A stretch of 64,000 bases of DNA from Methylophilaceae bacterium 11 (GCA_000525025.1 JCKJ01000001.1:62001-126000), one strand, 5' to 3'. Positions 5,261 to 64,000 are shown, counted from the stretch's first letter. Made by a program: numbers and translations. The notes: generated by a model from the sequence alone, not told the origin.

Positions 5261-6220
5261 TTGAGTTTAAAGGGAAACTGGGCATTACCTTGTGTAGTGT
5301 TGTGCCTACTTTGCCCTTTTGCTTTAGCGCAATCTGCAGATTTACCCATTGAAACCAAACTCGATACGCTAGCAGAATCAGCACTCAGCACTAGCGCAGC
5401 GGAGTCAACGTCTCCCCCCGAAGTACCTGAAAATATACCTGCGCAAACAGAAGACGGCCAATTGCTTTGGCCGATGATGCCACATGAGACTTTAGCGCAA
5501 TTGGCCAAGACGTTTTATCCGGATAGCCCGATTCTAGAGCAGCGATTTATCCAGAAGACCATTCGTTTAACTAAGGCGTTGGGGGTCGCGCTATTGCCAG
5601 ATACGCCATTTAAACGCGTGCAAGTGATTGCGATTCCGGATGAGAAAGAAGTGCGTGCGATGACGCACCGTATCAAAAAAATGGAAGAAATCACGCATGC
5701 ACAAAGTCAGCTTAAATTAAGTTATCAGCTGAAGTTAAGCGACCAACTCAAAAAAATTATTCCACCTGCACCCAAGCCAAGCAAAACCATTCCACACCAT
5801 CCACAAGCACAGGCTAAACCTGTTTTGATTAAGCCGACATTGCCTGCGCCGGATACGCCTTCGCATTGGGTGCGTATGTGGCAACAAACACAATCAACGG
5901 TGTCATCATGGGTAGTGACGGCCAAGACCTATTGGATGGTAGAAACCCCTAGCTGGATGCAACAATTGCATCATCCTCAATGGCGCAATGGCTTGTATCT
6001 CACGCTGTTGTTACTCATGGGGCTTGGGCTCTGGCGTTTACAAAAGCATTATATGTGTCGGCAGATTGCACTTTTGAATACCATCACGACAACTTTGGAA
6101 GATGCTGACTCAGATGCGCCATCGGAAACTGCGGCAGCAGAAGTACAGAATGCAGCAGTGTCCATGCTCACGCCATATCATCAGCACACACATGAAGAAG
6201 ATAGATCCGCGGCTGCTTAG
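5261..6220 (+). CDS. Unrecognised membrane protein with LysM-like segment and C-terminal TM helix
   Basis: I do not recognise this 319-residue protein. It has an N-terminal export signal (hydrophobic to about residue 24, cleavage near ALAQSA), a low-complexity Ser/Pro/Glu stretch, then a LysM-like segment at about 67-125 (DGQLLWPMMPHETLAQLA followed by a FYP turn). A short coiled region with the six-residue repeat QLKLSx (about 150-165) and a Pro/Lys-rich linker follow. A single transmembrane helix at about 244-260 leaves a short acidic cytoplasmic tail. The architecture resembles FimV or other wall-binding anchor proteins. The start is uncertain: TTG is the best codon, since no in-frame ATG exists before the signal peptide. 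It follows argH by 11 bases. Confidence 0.6.
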   Translation: MSLKGNWALPCVVLCLLCPFALAQSADLPIETKLDTLAESALSTSAAESTSPPEVPENIPAQTEDGQLLWPMMPHETLAQLAKTFYPDSPILEQRFIQKTIRLTKALGVALLPDTPFKRVQVIAIPDEKEVRAMTHRIKKMEEITHAQSQLKLSYQLKLSDQLKKIIPPAPKPSKTIPHHPQAQAKPVLIKPTLPAPDTPSHWVRMWQQTQSTVSSWVVTAKTYWMVETPSWMQQLHHPQWRNGLYLTLLLLMGLGLWRLQKHYMCRQIALLNTITTTLEDADSDAPSETAAAEVQNAAVSMLTPYHQHTHEEDRSAAA

Positions 6221-9634: not shown

Positions 9635-10232
9635 TGAGCCTTTCTAACTTTTGTAACAACTTGGACATGGCGTGTCCGCGGTGGCTGATTCTGCTTTTAA
9701 TCTCTAAAGGTAGTTCAGCAACTGTTTTACCTGTTTTCGCATCCAAGAATAACGGGTCATAGCCAAAGCCATCATGACCACGATACTCTTTTAAAATTTC
9801 TCCAACCCATTGTCCTTCAGCAATCAAAGGTTCTGGATCTTGCGCATAGCGCACCAGCACCATCACACAATAAAAGTGGGCGTTACGGTGAGGTGTGTCA
9901 CCTAATACAGCGAGCAATTTTTGATTGTTCTTTTCGTCTGATTTGGGCTCGCCAGCATAGCGTGCGGAGAGCACGCCTGGCGCACCCTGCAAGCTATCCA
10001 CACACAAACCAGAGTCATCGGCCAATGCTGGCAAGCCAGTATGTTGACTGGCATGGCGCGCTTTGGCCAGCGCGTTTTCTATAAATGTGCAGTAAGGCTC
10101 ATCGCATTCAGGTACGTTGAGGGCAGACTGCGGAATGACCTCCAGCGCAAGTGGCGCCAGCAGGTGCTGGATTTCCCGCAGCTTGCCTGCGTTACCCGTG
10201 GCAATCACCAGCTCTTTAAATGGTAGGGCCAT
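9624..10232 (-). CDS. rdgB: dITP/XTP pyrophosphatase (RdgB/HAM1 family)
   Basis: The enzyme hydrolyses non-canonical purine triphosphates (dITP, XTP) to keep them out of nucleic acids. The 202-residue protein starts with the substrate-binding VIATGNAGKLREIQ (residues 9-22), has ALADDSGLCVDSL with the catalytic Asp pair (about 69-81), and GHDGFGYDPLF and SHRGHA nearer the C terminus. The ATG shares one base with the rph stop (TAATG), so the genes are translationally coupled. Confidence 0.97.
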   Translation of the reverse strand: MALPFKELVIATGNAGKLREIQHLLAPLALEVIPQSALNVPECDEPYCTFIENALAKARHASQHTGLPALADDSGLCVDSLQGAPGVLSARYAGEPKSDEKNNQKLLAVLGDTPHRNAHFYCVMVLVRYAQDPEPLIAEGQWVGEILKEYRGHDGFGYDPLFLDAKTGKTVAELPLEIKSRISHRGHAMSKLLQKLERLNDE

Positions 10233-59017: not shown

Positions 59018-59275
59018 ATGAAGATAACACGTCATCAGCGTGGTCAAGGCATGACTGAGTATATTGTGATTGTTGCATTGGTAGCTATTGCGGCAATTGC
59101 AACGTATCAATTTTTTGGTCAAACAATCCGTAATCAAACTGCATCCATTGCGCAAGAAATTGCAGGTAATGCAAACACAGCACAAGCACAAGCAATTACA
59201 AACTCGACTGCAGCTGCTACGGCAGCAAACGTGCATGAAACATTAGATAGTTATGATGGCAATGTGGGTAAATAA
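59018..59275 (+). CDS. Flp/Tad-type pilin-like protein
   Basis: The 85-residue protein has a short basic leader (MKITRHQRG) followed by the prepilin cleavage motif G/QGMTEY, with the conserved Glu at mature residue 5, then a hydrophobic helix (about 15-30). The rest is Ala/Thr/Asn-rich. This matches small pilin-like proteins of Tad/Flp systems, processed by a prepilin peptidase at the inner membrane. A strong ribosome site (AGAGGA) and a following terminator suggest high, separate expression as the major subunit. The exact subtype (Flp or TadE-like) is not certain. Confidence 0.78.
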   Translation: MKITRHQRGQGMTEYIVIVALVAIAAIATYQFFGQTIRNQTASIAQEIAGNANTAQAQAITNSTAAATAANVHETLDSYDGNVGK

Positions 59276-59294
59276 AGCATCTATATAGATGGCT

Positions 59295-59321
59295 AAGCCG
59301 CCACTAATTGTGGCGGCTTTT
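59295..59321 (+). terminator. Terminator hairpin between the pilin gene and the TadG-like gene
   Basis: AAGCCGCCAC and GTGGCGGCTT form a perfect 10-bp stem around TAATT, followed by TTTT. The next ATG is two bases after it, and the only Shine-Dalgarno-like sequence (GGCGG) for that gene lies inside the stem. Confidence 0.85.
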
Positions 59322-59323
59322 CT

Positions 59324-60658
59324 ATGATGATAAACAAATATCTTTTTCAGCGTGGTCAAGCTTTGCCGCTTGCGCTCGTATTGTTAGCGGCAATAGCGGC
59401 TACCGTTTTCTATATGTTTAATACCGGCCAATTGGTGCAAGAGAAAATAGGGCTTACTAACACGGCTGACGCCGTCGCTTATAGTGCAGGGGTGTATGAA
59501 GCGCGCGTGCTCAATTATGACGCATATACCAATCGCGCCATGATTGCCAACGAAATTGCAATCGGCCAAGCAGTGGGCTTGGCATCGTGGGCCAAATATG
59601 CAGGCACATCTGCAAATAATATAAGCCAGTGGGCAAAATATATACCTTACGTGGGCCCCTATATTGAGGCAACACTTAAGGCGGTTGAAAAGGCAATGGA
59701 TGCCATTTTAAAGCCACTTGGTATTGCTGTTGGTTTGCATGATGGTGCCATTCAGGTGCTGAAAGCTTCACAATTTGCAGTGCATGGGCCAGGCAATTCA
59801 ATCGCTTTGTTTAATCGCAAAGTGGTAATGGATGAAGTGGCCAAGCAAAATGATCCTGATGTAAGTGTGGATATTCTACCAATCAGTGACAACTTTGCTG
59901 GGTTTACCAAGCGTTACGCGCAAGGTGAGCGTACCCGAATGCGTGATGTCGTAGAGCGGAATCGTCAACAAGAGAATTTTTTAAAAACGAGACGATGGGA
60001 TTTTAAATTTGGTATATGCGTCAGGCCTTTTGGCGGATTTCGGATTGATTTTAAAAAGCGCGGTGGCACTGCTTTAATCGGGCTAGATGGCTGGAAGTCG
60101 ATAGATACATTGTCAGCACATACGAGGTCTGGTAGCAAATGTAAACGAAGAGAAAGGCCGATTGGCTATGGGTCAAGCTTTTCTGCAGATGGTCTGCCTG
60201 ATAACTACGATGCATACAATCAATCACGTAGTACCAATCCACGCGCGACGTCACGTGCGCTTTCAGAAGGTGTGGCATGGAATAGTGCACCAGCAAGTGT
60301 AACTGGCGGTGCAATTCCAGAGTTTTACGATTTGTCGGAAGATGCGTTAAAGCAGAAAGACCCACGCACACAAATCACGATCAGAGTGACTAAGCCCAAT
60401 AATAGACAGCGTTATTCAGGTGGAACTAGCATAGTGAAGCCTAGCGGAAGTTTGGATTTGTATGGTGGAGAGCATCAAGGTGAAGTAACTGCAAGTATTG
60501 CACGTGCTGAAGTGTATTTTGAGCGGCCAGATGGCGCCAATAAACTATATAACAAAGCCGAATTGGGAAGTTTGTTTAACCCATATTGGCAAGTGCATTT
60601 AGTGCCAGTATCTATTGCTGAACGTGCTCAAGCTGCATTACTACAAGGATTTAAATGA
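59324..60658 (+). CDS. TadG-like putative Flp pilus-assembly protein
   Basis: The 444-residue protein has an N-terminal prepilin-like segment (QRGQALPLALVLLAAIAA) matching the TadE/TadG-like family (PF13400), and one hydrophobic helix. The large periplasmic part includes NTADAVAYSAGVYEARVLNYDAYTN, typical of that family in pilus loci. The rest (about 200-440) is not recognised and is hydrophilic. Its stop overlaps the next start (ATGA). Initiation is unusual because its ribosome site is inside a terminator hairpin. Confidence 0.72.
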   Translation: MMINKYLFQRGQALPLALVLLAAIAATVFYMFNTGQLVQEKIGLTNTADAVAYSAGVYEARVLNYDAYTNRAMIANEIAIGQAVGLASWAKYAGTSANNISQWAKYIPYVGPYIEATLKAVEKAMDAILKPLGIAVGLHDGAIQVLKASQFAVHGPGNSIALFNRKVVMDEVAKQNDPDVSVDILPISDNFAGFTKRYAQGERTRMRDVVERNRQQENFLKTRRWDFKFGICVRPFGGFRIDFKKRGGTALIGLDGWKSIDTLSAHTRSGSKCKRRERPIGYGSSFSADGLPDNYDAYNQSRSTNPRATSRALSEGVAWNSAPASVTGGAIPEFYDLSEDALKQKDPRTQITIRVTKPNNRQRYSGGTSIVKPSGSLDLYGGEHQGEVTASIARAEVYFERPDGANKLYNKAELGSLFNPYWQVHLVPVSIAERAQAALLQGFK

Positions 60659-61650
60659 TTAAAGCATTAAAAAAATGGTTGATGCGAAGTGTGTGGCTGA
60701 TAAGTTTGATTGTATTCATCCAGCCAATATTGGGGCATACGCAGTCGATGGTGCATTTGCATTACACGGGAAGTATTAAATTAAATTTTGGTGGAATGAC
60801 TGCACATGAGTTTTATAAAAAGACTTGTGATGATTTAAATAAAATAGAGGCCCCATTGGGTAAAGTGACGCCGTTTAAAGTGAGCGGAAGCCTGAAAGAC
60901 TTAGAAACCTATACGGAGGATGTATATATTTCTACAGAAAACGGCTATCACGCAACTTATAAGCAGGGGTATGCACTAGAGCAAAAAAGACCTGCTTGCG
61001 ATTACAAAGTGATCCCACGCCAAGAAATCACAATTGTGTATTACAAGCAGCGTAGTACATATGCGTTTGATTCGTCGCGTCCACAGGGTGAGCAATGGGT
61101 GAGAAGTGAATTGCCAAGCTCGGCAGTTAGCAAAATGACAGGCAATGCGGTTGCTGGTTTATGGGGTTTTAACGTGCGGCCTACAGGTAAGAAAGATAGG
61201 GTTGCTAACTTATTTTGTGATGTTGCTGAAATTCGTCTAGGAAAGACGAATGAGCTGGCGGGCACCATGTGCGCTTGGCACTCTGATCCAAAAGATCATC
61301 TGGTATTTCTTGGCCACCCACTTGAGCTAGATTTAAGTAGTCAAATGCAAATGGGTAAAGGGGCAACTAGTCAGCATGTTGCTAATAAAGTTAACCTTAG
61401 GGAGGCATTTGACGCGAGCGTTTTTCAAGTGCCTAGTGCCGTAAAAAATATGCCGTTTTATGCAGATGAACCCAACTACACCAATCCAGAAAAAGATGAC
61501 ACTGACCTAGACTGCAAAGCCGAAAAGAAGAGAACAGGGATTAACCCATGCGCAAGTCCTGCAGAGCTAGCTAAATGGTGTAAAGCAGAAATGGATAAAA
61601 CTGGTGAAGATCGCTGCAATAACGATGATATGGACGACAGCAGTGAGTAA
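60655..61650 (+). CDS. Unrecognised exported protein in the pilus locus
   Basis: I do not recognise this 331-residue protein. A basic start and hydrophobic segment to about residue 27 form a signal peptide. The body contains two pairs of cysteines, and the C-terminal 50 residues are acidic with four more cysteines (DCKAEKK, NPCASP, KWCKAE, DRCNND), so disulfide bonds are likely. It overlaps the TadG-like gene by four bases and precedes the TadE-like gene, so it probably acts at the cell surface with the pilus. Confidence 0.62.
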   Translation: MIKALKKWLMRSVWLISLIVFIQPILGHTQSMVHLHYTGSIKLNFGGMTAHEFYKKTCDDLNKIEAPLGKVTPFKVSGSLKDLETYTEDVYISTENGYHATYKQGYALEQKRPACDYKVIPRQEITIVYYKQRSTYAFDSSRPQGEQWVRSELPSSAVSKMTGNAVAGLWGFNVRPTGKKDRVANLFCDVAEIRLGKTNELAGTMCAWHSDPKDHLVFLGHPLELDLSSQMQMGKGATSQHVANKVNLREAFDASVFQVPSAVKNMPFYADEPNYTNPEKDDTDLDCKAEKKRTGINPCASPAELAKWCKAEMDKTGEDRCNNDDMDDSSE

Positions 61651-62413
61651 CTATTCATCTCAAACTGGGCAATCAACGCTTGAGTTCATTGTTGTTTCAT
61701 TGGTATTAGTCCCTTTGTTTTTGATTGTGCCACTCTTGGGTAAATATTTAGATTTAGCGCAAACCACACAAGTCGCCAGTCGCTATGTGGCTTTTGAAGG
61801 TGCAGTGCATCACTCTTCTAGCGCTGCAGGATGGAAAACAGATGCAGAATTGGCAGCCGAGGTGCGCAGACGTTTTTATAGTCGAAATGATTTATCGATC
61901 AAAACTGGCGACGTGGTAAGTGAGATTGACAGTGAAAGAAACCCACTTTGGGTTGATCATCGTGCCGATGCAATATTGCCAGATTTTAATCAAGTCAGTG
62001 TACAAACCACAAAAACATCCATAGCCAGTGTGTTTAATGGCGTTACTAATGTGCTTGATTTTAGTGATGATTTTAATTTGCCGCAGGATAACTTATATAG
62101 CGGTAGTGTCAGTGTGCAGCTTGCAAATGTGGCTGGGCTGGCACCGTTTGATGCGATTGATTTATCCATGGTGAGAAAGACTGTTGTGTTGGTGGATCCA
62201 TGGGCTGCAAAAGGGCCGGCTGATATCAGCAGCAAAGTAAAAAATTCTGGTATCAAGACGTTTCCCTACCAAGTGTTACAAGTCCCAGCCAGTATTTTAG
62301 AGCCCGTCATTTCAGTATTTGAGGATGGCTTAGGTGGTGCCTCTCCACCAAAAATTGGTAGGGTAGATGCAGATGTTGTGCCTAAAGACCGCGTACTGCA
62401 GCCTTATCAATGA
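61643..62413 (+). CDS. TadE-like pseudopilin
   Basis: The 256-residue protein has a short leader then TGQSTLEFIVVSLVLVPLFL, the prepilin G/QSTLEF motif with Glu at mature residue 5, followed by QTTQVASRYVAFEGAVH, which fits the TadE/TadF pseudopilin family. The start is uncertain: GTG at 61643 is used because it gives a short prepilin leader, but GTG at 61604 or ATG at 61625 would add a few residues. It overlaps the previous gene end by eight bases and the next start by ATGA. Confidence 0.7.
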   Translation: MSNYSSQTGQSTLEFIVVSLVLVPLFLIVPLLGKYLDLAQTTQVASRYVAFEGAVHHSSSAAGWKTDAELAAEVRRRFYSRNDLSIKTGDVVSEIDSERNPLWVDHRADAILPDFNQVSVQTTKTSIASVFNGVTNVLDFSDDFNLPQDNLYSGSVSVQLANVAGLAPFDAIDLSMVRKTVVLVDPWAAKGPADISSKVKNSGIKTFPYQVLQVPASILEPVISVFEDGLGGASPPKIGRVDADVVPKDRVLQPYQ

Positions 62414-63072
62414 AAAAAATTATTTTGAGTATCGTATTAAGTTGCGTGGCAACTTGCAGTTGGGCTGACTGGCCTAGCTTGCCTTATCCCAATCATGCCA
62501 AAGTAGAAGCGATTGGCGAGCAGGTGCGCTTGAATGGGGTGCCAATGCGCATGCATCGCATACTCAGCGAACAAAGCGCGGAAAGTATGCTGGTATTTTA
62601 CAAAAAAGCATTGGGCACAAGGCATGCACAGGCCGAGTTTTATGGCACACACATCTTGTCGCAAGAGCGTGGCGATTACTTTATTACGGTGAGGATTAGT
62701 AAGCTTAGCCCAAGCTTAACCGAAACATTGTTATCTATCAGTGATGGTCGTGCATCGCAACGGATTGACAGCATGCCTTTAGGATTTTCTCTGCCAGCAG
62801 ATAGTGAGTTGTTGTCAGATATGGAGTCGACTGATGCAGGTAAAAGTTCACGCCAACTTATCTTTAATAACGGCCATTCTATGCAGACTAACGCAAATTT
62901 CATTACAAAGGTTTTACAAGATAAAGGCTATGCATTACAGCCTAAGTTGACAGTTAAACATACCAATAGTCTTAGCTTGATGTTTGAAGGAAACAAACGC
63001 GAAGCTAGGCTGGTGGTAACGCAGGGTGAAGGTGAAACAAGCGCGGTACTCACAACGATATTAAGCCAATGA
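62410..63072 (+). CDS. Unrecognised periplasmic protein in the pilus locus
   Basis: The 220-residue protein has a clear signal peptide (MKKIILSIVLSCVATCSWAD, cleavage after SWA) and no other membrane segment. The remaining sequence is soluble and shows no motif that I can name. It is coupled on both sides by ATGA overlaps, so it must be part of the same translation unit as the TadE-like gene and the short pilin. Confidence 0.6.
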   Translation: MKKIILSIVLSCVATCSWADWPSLPYPNHAKVEAIGEQVRLNGVPMRMHRILSEQSAESMLVFYKKALGTRHAQAEFYGTHILSQERGDYFITVRISKLSPSLTETLLSISDGRASQRIDSMPLGFSLPADSELLSDMESTDAGKSSRQLIFNNGHSMQTNANFITKVLQDKGYALQPKLTVKHTNSLSLMFEGNKREARLVVTQGEGETSAVLTTILSQ

Positions 63073-63245
63073 AGCATATTAAAAAACAGCTCGGTCAGTC
63101 TGCAACAGAATACATCATCACTTTAATTGTTGTGATGATGATATTGGGGGTTGGTTTTGCGAACGAAGGCTCGGTGATTACCATTTTCTTGGATGCGGTA
63201 AGAGAAGGGTTTGAACGGTACAGTAGTTTCTTGTCGCTACCGTAA
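63069..63245 (+). CDS. Second, very short Flp/Tad-type pilin-like protein
   Basis: This 58-residue ORF is easy to miss. It reads MKHIKKQLG, then QSATEYIITLIVVMMILG, then a short tail ending SLP. The leader, the G/QSATEY cleavage site with Glu5, and the hydrophobic helix are those of a class III prepilin. ATG overlaps the previous stop (ATGA). It may be a minor pilin or a regulator of assembly. cpaB follows 61 bases later. Confidence 0.72.
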   Translation: MKHIKKQLGQSATEYIITLIVVMMILGVGFANEGSVITIFLDAVREGFERYSSFLSLP

Positions 63246-63306
63246 TAGCAAGGCTGAAACATTGGGATATGAAAGTTAATTATTTAAAGGAAGTAGCAGG
63301 AACGCG

Positions 63307-64000
63307 ATGATGCCAAAAATAAATAAAAATTGGTTAATTTTAATAGTGGCACTGTTGGTGGGTGCTTTTGCTGCGTTCAGCACAAAAAATTATATTAAAA
63401 GCAAAGTAGAAGACATTGAAGCGCAGAATAAAAACAAGGCGATGGTCAAAGTCGTGGTAGCAAAGCAAGCATTAGAAAAAGGGGAGTTGTTGTCTGCGGC
63501 TAATATGGCGACACGTGAAGTGCCGCAAGAGTGGGCACATTCAGGCGCAATCACACCGGACCAATTTAGTCGCGCAGAGGGCGCTGTATTGGCGTATGCA
63601 GCCAATGCAGGTGAGCCCGTGATTTGGGCTCAATTGGAAGGTCAAAAATTAGCCACATTCTCTGCCAAGCTAGATGCCGGTCGGCGAGCGGTGACGGTGC
63701 CGGTGGATGAGATTAGCTCAATTTCAGGCATGGTAGAGCCGGATGATTTGATTGATATTGTGGTTTCTATGCAAAAAGATACGCACAACTTTACCTTTAC
63801 ACTGTTGCAGAGTGTGCGTGTGCTTGCCACAGGTACCAAAGTATCGCAAAGCAGTAAAGACGATGCAGGTAGACCGGTGACTTACACAACAGTGACATTG
63901 GATACCAGCCCGGAGGATGCAAAGCGACTGATAGCAGCACGTGAAGTAGGGCGTGTAACTGCGTTGCTGAGGGCGCCAGGCGATATCACGGATGTCTCTG
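63307..64000 (+). CDS. cpaB: CpaB/RcpC-type Flp pilus assembly protein (cut by window edge)
   Basis: CpaB is an inner-membrane-anchored periplasmic protein of the Tad secretion system. The visible 231 residues begin MMPKINKNWLILIVALLVGA with a signal anchor, followed by an SAF domain (VVVAKQALEKGELLSAANM and REVPQEW) and the RcpC/CpaB segment (AVTVPVDEISSISGMVEPDD). The gene continues past the right edge. In related loci cpaC, cpaE, cpaF, tadB and tadC follow, so the rest of the pilus machinery is probably just outside the window. Confidence 0.9.
   Translation, partial: MMPKINKNWLILIVALLVGAFAAFSTKNYIKSKVEDIEAQNKNKAMVKVVVAKQALEKGELLSAANMATREVPQEWAHSGAITPDQFSRAEGAVLAYAANAGEPVIWAQLEGQKLATFSAKLDAGRRAVTVPVDEISSISGMVEPDDLIDIVVSMQKDTHNFTFTLLQSVRVLATGTKVSQSSKDDAGRPVTYTTVTLDTSPEDAKRLIAAREVGRVTALLRAPGDITDVS

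Follow-up and report, generated by a model that had tools for sequence, protein, structure and literature searches.

An unnamed exported protein encoded between tadE and cpaB is a conserved part of Tad pilus loci with an FHA-fused CpaF

Here, we show that a 64,000-nucleotide stretch of DNA (the window; C1:62001-126000 of G000, a 2.79 Mb genome in a single contig) ends with the 5′ half of a Tad (type IVc) pilus locus that is complete in the genome and belongs to the FHA-CpaF subtype (CpaF "class III"), and that the exported protein encoded in it between tadE and cpaB, denoted Y, is a conserved, unnamed part of nearly every FHA-type locus and of none of the standard Tad loci examined. An architecture class with FHA-CpaF (class III) has been described before, mostly from betaproteobacteria (PMC12019362). 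Our literature search turned up nothing on Y, on the link to DUF192 or on the exclusion of TadZ, an absence that is no proof. The architecture is read directly from the DNA, and it is from the sequences that we infer functions for Y and for a second exported protein, X. On balance, we lean towards a reading in which Y would act in the periplasm as a core factor in assembly of the pilus tip or conduit, and X would be a variable accessory, of a complete FHA-CpaF Tad locus.

The genes of the locus within the window all lie on the plus strand, those named in the initial annotation at the positions given there. The conserved first gene of the locus, flp (59018..59275), encodes the putative major pilin, of 85 amino acids, with the mature start G|QGMTEYI (Pfam Flp_Fap, 3.6e-4, below the curated cut-off). 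It is followed by a gene for a tadG-like minor pilin of 444 amino acids without E5 (59324..60658; Pfam Tad, PF13400, 4.5e-5, above cut-off); by X (60655..61650), an exported protein of 331 amino acids; and by a tadE-like minor pilin gene (61643..62413), assigned by the E5 motif in G|QSTLEF and by synteny, with a Pfam TadE match of 0.26 only. The tadE-like ORF is open from GTG 61604 (61604-62413), and GTG 61643 is its likely start. Next come Y (62410..63072), an exported, two-domain protein of 220 amino acids; flp2 (63069..63245), a Flp-like pilin gene encoding 58 amino acids and a candidate tip adapter; and the start of cpaB (63307..64000, running on to position 5722 of the adjoining sequence; TIGR03177, 4.5e-47). 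Thus, the pilin-like, TadG-like, TadE-like and cpaB genes recognised earlier are all present, with Flp and TadE below the profile cut-offs. The chain from tadG through X, tadE and Y to flp2 is joined by an ATGA overlap at 60655-60658, by GTGAGTAA at 61643-61650 (if GTG 61643 is the start), and by ATGA again at 62410-62413 and at 63069-63072. These are the four ATGA or short overlaps on which the initial annotation had remarked, the last of them belonging to flp2, a gene that it had missed. In close pairs with dS <1.5, the dN/dS values of 0.07-0.33 for X, Y and the 58-amino-acid gene indicate purifying selection on all three.

Between flp and tadG lies a GC-rich hairpin followed by a short T-run (59289..59320, plus strand), a possible attenuator, with a z of -4.8 for the 50-nt fold. 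There is one terminator-like site here, at 59297, the total count of such sites being not above chance; hairpins of similar shape and unrelated sequence are found in L009, L011, L012, L013 and L015. The hairpin may lower readthrough, such that the minor pilins would be made in smaller amounts than Flp.

The DNA to the right of the window (C1:120500-138000, designated L002; window coordinate = L002 + 58499), to which the initial annotation had pointed for cpaC/F and tadB/C, completes the locus: all of these genes are found past the window edge. Downstream of cpaB, the order is secretin gene cpaC, FHA-fused cpaF, tadB, a yccF/ybjQ-like insertion, tadC, DUF192, hipA on the other strand, and TadE-OmpA, the last of the five pilin-like proteins of the locus (with Flp, Flp2, TadG-like and TadE-like). 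CpaB/RcpC, a secretin, a single CpaF ATPase, TadB and TadC all within the locus, together with the Flp pilin motif G|xxxxEY in both Flp and Flp2, identify a Tad/Flp (type IVc) system, and the N-terminal FHA domain of CpaF (PF00498, 2.3e-11, residues 24-87) places it in class III (PMC12019362), a class that also has a disordered stretch separating FHA from the ATPase core. TadZ/CpaE is absent, so that the locus is not of the canonical TadZ type, and it also lacks TadD and a prepilin peptidase TadV of its own. The earlier suggestion of a divergent pilus or secretion subtype accordingly holds, in the form of FHA-CpaF, DUF192, TadE-OmpA, a short second Flp and the unnamed Y, without TadZ, TadV or TadD. 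The class III Tad pili of the literature share the N-terminal FHA on a single CpaF ATPase and the betaproteobacterial setting, but the class, in the text accessible to us, is defined by the ATPase alone (PMC12019362); the associated set of Y, Flp2, DUF192 and TadE-OmpA, like the absence of TadZ, is read from the present sequences.

Two insertions are absent from most relatives: the YccF and YbjQ-like genes between tadB and tadC (L002 9950-10823), and the HipA-like gene on the other strand between DUF192 and TadE-OmpA (L002 12174-13433). Directly 3′ of tadB are ten perfect copies of the 7-bp unit GCAGTTG (L002 9986-10055; C1 about 130485-130554). Given that this array lies within the 5′ portion of the yccF ORF, the start assigned to yccF at 9950 may be wrong.

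At about C1:518.6-528.8 kb, the same genome contains a second Tad locus, of the canonical kind, which encodes TadV, TadE, CpaB, CpaC, TadZ, an FHA-less CpaF, TadB, TadC, a TPR-like TadD and TadG (TadZ, TadD, TadV and TadG assigned by sequence and gene order, TadV additionally by PF01478). The two loci have in common Flp, CpaB, the secretin, CpaF, TadB, TadC and proteins of the TadE and TadG types, whereas the second possesses TadV, TadZ, TadD and a CpaF without FHA and has no X, Y or DUF192, the focal locus being the reverse. Matches to PF01478 in the genome are confined to C1:2169536, presumably PilD, and C1:528479, inside the second locus. Because these are the only two prepilin peptidases found and neither is at the focal locus, the focal prepilins would be processed in trans, by PilD or by TadV of the other Tad locus.

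A first run of the Y profile over 399 genomes of the order detected Y in 23 of them, between tadE and cpaB in every locus examined and always between tadE and flp2/cpaB. Since choosing loci by Y is circular, loci were then chosen by CpaB, yielding 19 with FHA (L101-L103, L105-L118, L120 and L130) and 21 without (L119, L121, L127-L129 and L131-L146). Y is present in 17 of the 19 FHA-CpaF loci vs none of the 21 others at E <= 0.001; for DUF192, the split is all 19 vs none. The two exceptions are L113, which has no Y and little room for one, and L116, with a match at E 0.01 only; L130, included as a presumed control, proved to carry FHA along with Y (3e-9) and DUF192 (3e-33). With leave-one-out profiles, used because a self-inclusive Y profile inflated E-values, 11 distant members of Y were regained (E 5e-13 to 7e-43). 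TadZ, queried with the genome's own copy, is the mirror image, occurring in 0 of 51 FHA+ loci (Y-selected and some contig-truncated ones among them) vs 21 of 21 FHA- loci; both the TadZ and the TadD queries are single sequences, with which distant copies can be missed. The loci are related by descent, so that the counts describe an architecture rather than independent events. The survey of homologues called for in the initial annotation thus finds Y near-universal in the subtype, and X patchy.

The FHA-CpaF/Y architecture recurs across the order; the whole block is present also in five genomes from other orders of the class (selected by Y), and related loci come from records labelled betaproteobacteria. 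At the other end of the scale, a single-sequence search detected Y in 3 of 22 genomes of the genus (G000-G021), namely, that of the window, G001 and G016, which makes the locus patchy within the genus. A tblastn search of plasmids with Y gave no match. A Moraxella bovis plasmid (L126; NZ_CP087831.1) has a similar gene order, with the genes in the Y and flp2 positions annotated as hypothetical proteins; flp2 is confirmed by profile (4e-10), and the match of the Y-position gene is weak (E 0.004). In this plasmid, an RHS-repeat gene lies directly 3′ of the TadE-OmpA-like gene (L126 14868-19418). Weak phylum-wide matches to Y in G752, G669 and G458 were set aside, as they fall outside recognisable Tad loci and cover mainly one domain; they are possible distant superfamily members. 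Another class has a Tad-like locus encoding two CpaF-like ATPases, in which a Y-like ORF of 350 amino acids is located just 5′ of cpaB (L173 7798-8850).

A wider generalization, which we put forward tentatively and with some doubt, is that there are two mutually exclusive types of Tad control, one by TadZ and the other by FHA-regulated CpaF together with a set of its own (Y, Flp2, DUF192 and TadE-OmpA), Y being a core periplasmic component not recognised before and phosphothreonine signalling replacing TadZ in positioning and assembly. Tad pili are drivers of adhesion, of biofilm formation and of contact-dependent killing, and the catalogue of their non-pilin envelope components is still being compiled. 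With its consistent and different parts list, the present subtype gives clear candidates for the assembly of Tad machines without TadZ and TadD, and Y between tadE and cpaB provides a usable annotation marker.

Both exported proteins had been reported to match no known family, and this stands: there is no Pfam or NCBIfam match for Y, including 26 Y homologues scanned, or for X, including 12 X homologues. Against PDB sequences, the best matches of Y have E 0.03 or worse, none convincing, and with the empty family searches this led us to set aside a known family for Y; for X, none is convincing either. The AlphaFold model of Y, built from seven sequences, has a pLDDT of 87.6 and displays, after the signal peptide, two similar alpha/beta units (31-112 and 133-219), each of them beta-beta-alpha and then further strands. 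By profile, the units align in register, weakly (probability 35%, without a reversed control). Foldseek returned nothing for the Y model at E <= 0.001, and the VIA matches, with a best Z of 7.0 (MTC28, PsbP, LppA, EagT6 and START folds), were taken as generic resemblance to solved folds.

The initial annotation had noted that the locus would be an ordinary one if both proteins were known Tad components such as TadF or RcpB, and Tad minor components indeed evolve fast, so that X and Y could be such proteins diverged past profile detection. TadF, however, has a prepilin leader with E5, and the N-termini of both X and Y, read by eye, are signal-peptide-like and devoid of the G|xxxxE prepilin motif; no family match emerged among the 26 Y and 12 X homologues, and Y occurs in FHA-type loci, not beside TadZ. 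We therefore consider an ordinary locus with disguised components highly improbable.

Of greater weight is the alternative that Y serves specifically in secretin assembly, as a pilotin or alignment protein for CpaC/CpaB, in place of TadD and with no relation to the minor pilins. Y is encoded just upstream of cpaB and cpaC; a single-sequence search found no TadD in the 51 FHA+ loci; and in P. aeruginosa RcpA needs TadD for secretin assembly, the pilotin fold not being conserved between systems (PMC10499894). We nevertheless regard this alternative as rather unlikely: most Y members are not lipoproteins, Y is flanked by two pilin genes, and TadD was found in only 6 of the 21 canonical loci too, so that its absence says little. 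Y is not TadD itself, an all-helical TPR fold, the confident Y model being strand-rich alpha/beta. The CpaC C-terminus was considered as a pilotin-binding tail, and no conserved tail was seen there.

The reading of Y as an assembly factor for the tip or conduit draws on the Kil pilus, in which TadE/F/G-type minor pilins form the tip and the short Flp proteins KilK and KilO (59 amino acids) couple it to the shaft (PMC12075869). By analogy, the TadG-like, TadE-like and TadE-OmpA proteins would form the pilus tip, and the 58-residue Flp2, in the manner of KilK and KilO, would join this tip to the Flp shaft. Y would be a soluble periplasmic factor that handles the tip module or attaches it to the conduit of CpaB and secretin, canonical factors such as TadD being absent from this subtype, and X, encoded between TadG and TadE, an optional LolA-like protein that binds tip pilins or rides on the pilus. 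Y and X are placed in the tip module because TadG, X, TadE, Y and Flp2 are grouped 5′ of the conduit and motor genes and because of the Kil precedent, operon position alone being no proof that either interacts with it.

Flp2 (MKHIKKQLG|QSATEYIITL...FERYSSFLSLP) bears the Flp signature E5, Y6 in its G|QSATEY motif and resembles the newly described tip adapters. Profile searches place a counterpart of it between Y and cpaB in most loci: nearly all of the first 31 have one, and among the more distant CpaB-chosen loci it is clear in about half. At the flp2 position of L170 (7871-8944) and L171 (8396-9427), the ORF is 343-357 amino acids long, against the usual 60 or so, and may represent a fusion or an enlarged adapter pilin.

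The likeness to Kil of Myxococcus xanthus, drawn from published descriptions, extends to the FHA-fused ATPase, the Tad core, the short Flp adapters (KilO 59 vs Flp2 58 amino acids) and the tip minor pilins (PMC8460266, PMC12075869), and raises the question of whether the focal locus is itself a Kil-like contact-dependent killing apparatus. KilF is likewise FHA-fused, Kil has no TadG, RcpB or TadD (PMC8460266) and uses short Flp adapters (PMC12075869), and the similar Moraxella bovis plasmid locus is followed by the RHS gene. However, Kil comes with a dedicated prepilin peptidase, KilA, with several tip clusters and with a link to a needleless T3SS; of these, none was recognised at the focal locus, and neither was an effector; we give this possibility hardly any credence.

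X differs from Y in its evolution: identity to the window copy in five relatives is 24-28% for X, 46-49% for Y and 65-70% for CpaB, and a minority of loci contain X (by profile, 7 of 399 genomes, in one of them away from the Tad locus), which points to a patchy, fast-evolving protein. These traits, and the encoding of both X and Y among minor-pilin genes, would suit passengers, that is, non-pilin proteins exported through the pilus or shown on its tip, for which PilY1 and TcpF/CofJ are analogues. Yet almost every locus of the subtype has Y, and it is better conserved than X, a pattern to be expected of machinery and not of cargo, so that a passenger role for both is improbable.

X contains cysteines at 58, 115, 188, 206, 287, 299, 309 and 321, of which 188 and 206 are invariant in 12 members. 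The last four make up the four-cysteine tail noted initially, resolved here into two C-x11-C units, CKAEKKRTGINPC and CKAEMDKTGEDRC; relatives with such a tail have one unit. The model of X is poor (pLDDT 58.9), and Foldseek gave nothing at E <= 0.001. The VIA matches of this low-confidence model, EPDR1 (Z 7.8), VioE (7.3), DUF1849 (6.5), LolA (6.4), LolB (5.9) and RseB (5.9), align over 111-166 residues at an rmsd of 4-6 A. Judging from this model, the fold of X is probably LolA-like: the LolA-like superfamily (LolA, LolB, RseB, LprG and DUF1849) leads this structural second look (Z 4.5-7.8), but there is no sequence-level match, and X has extra helices and the C-x11-C tail. DUF4412 was discarded as a source of X, one member in 60 genomes being too few for comparison. 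Two X-like genes stand in tandem within one Tad locus (L042 9580-11279), a duplication of X, and in G252 an X-like gene (L122 8076-8885), with one stop inside the match in a wider search, lies about 28 kb from the Tad locus.
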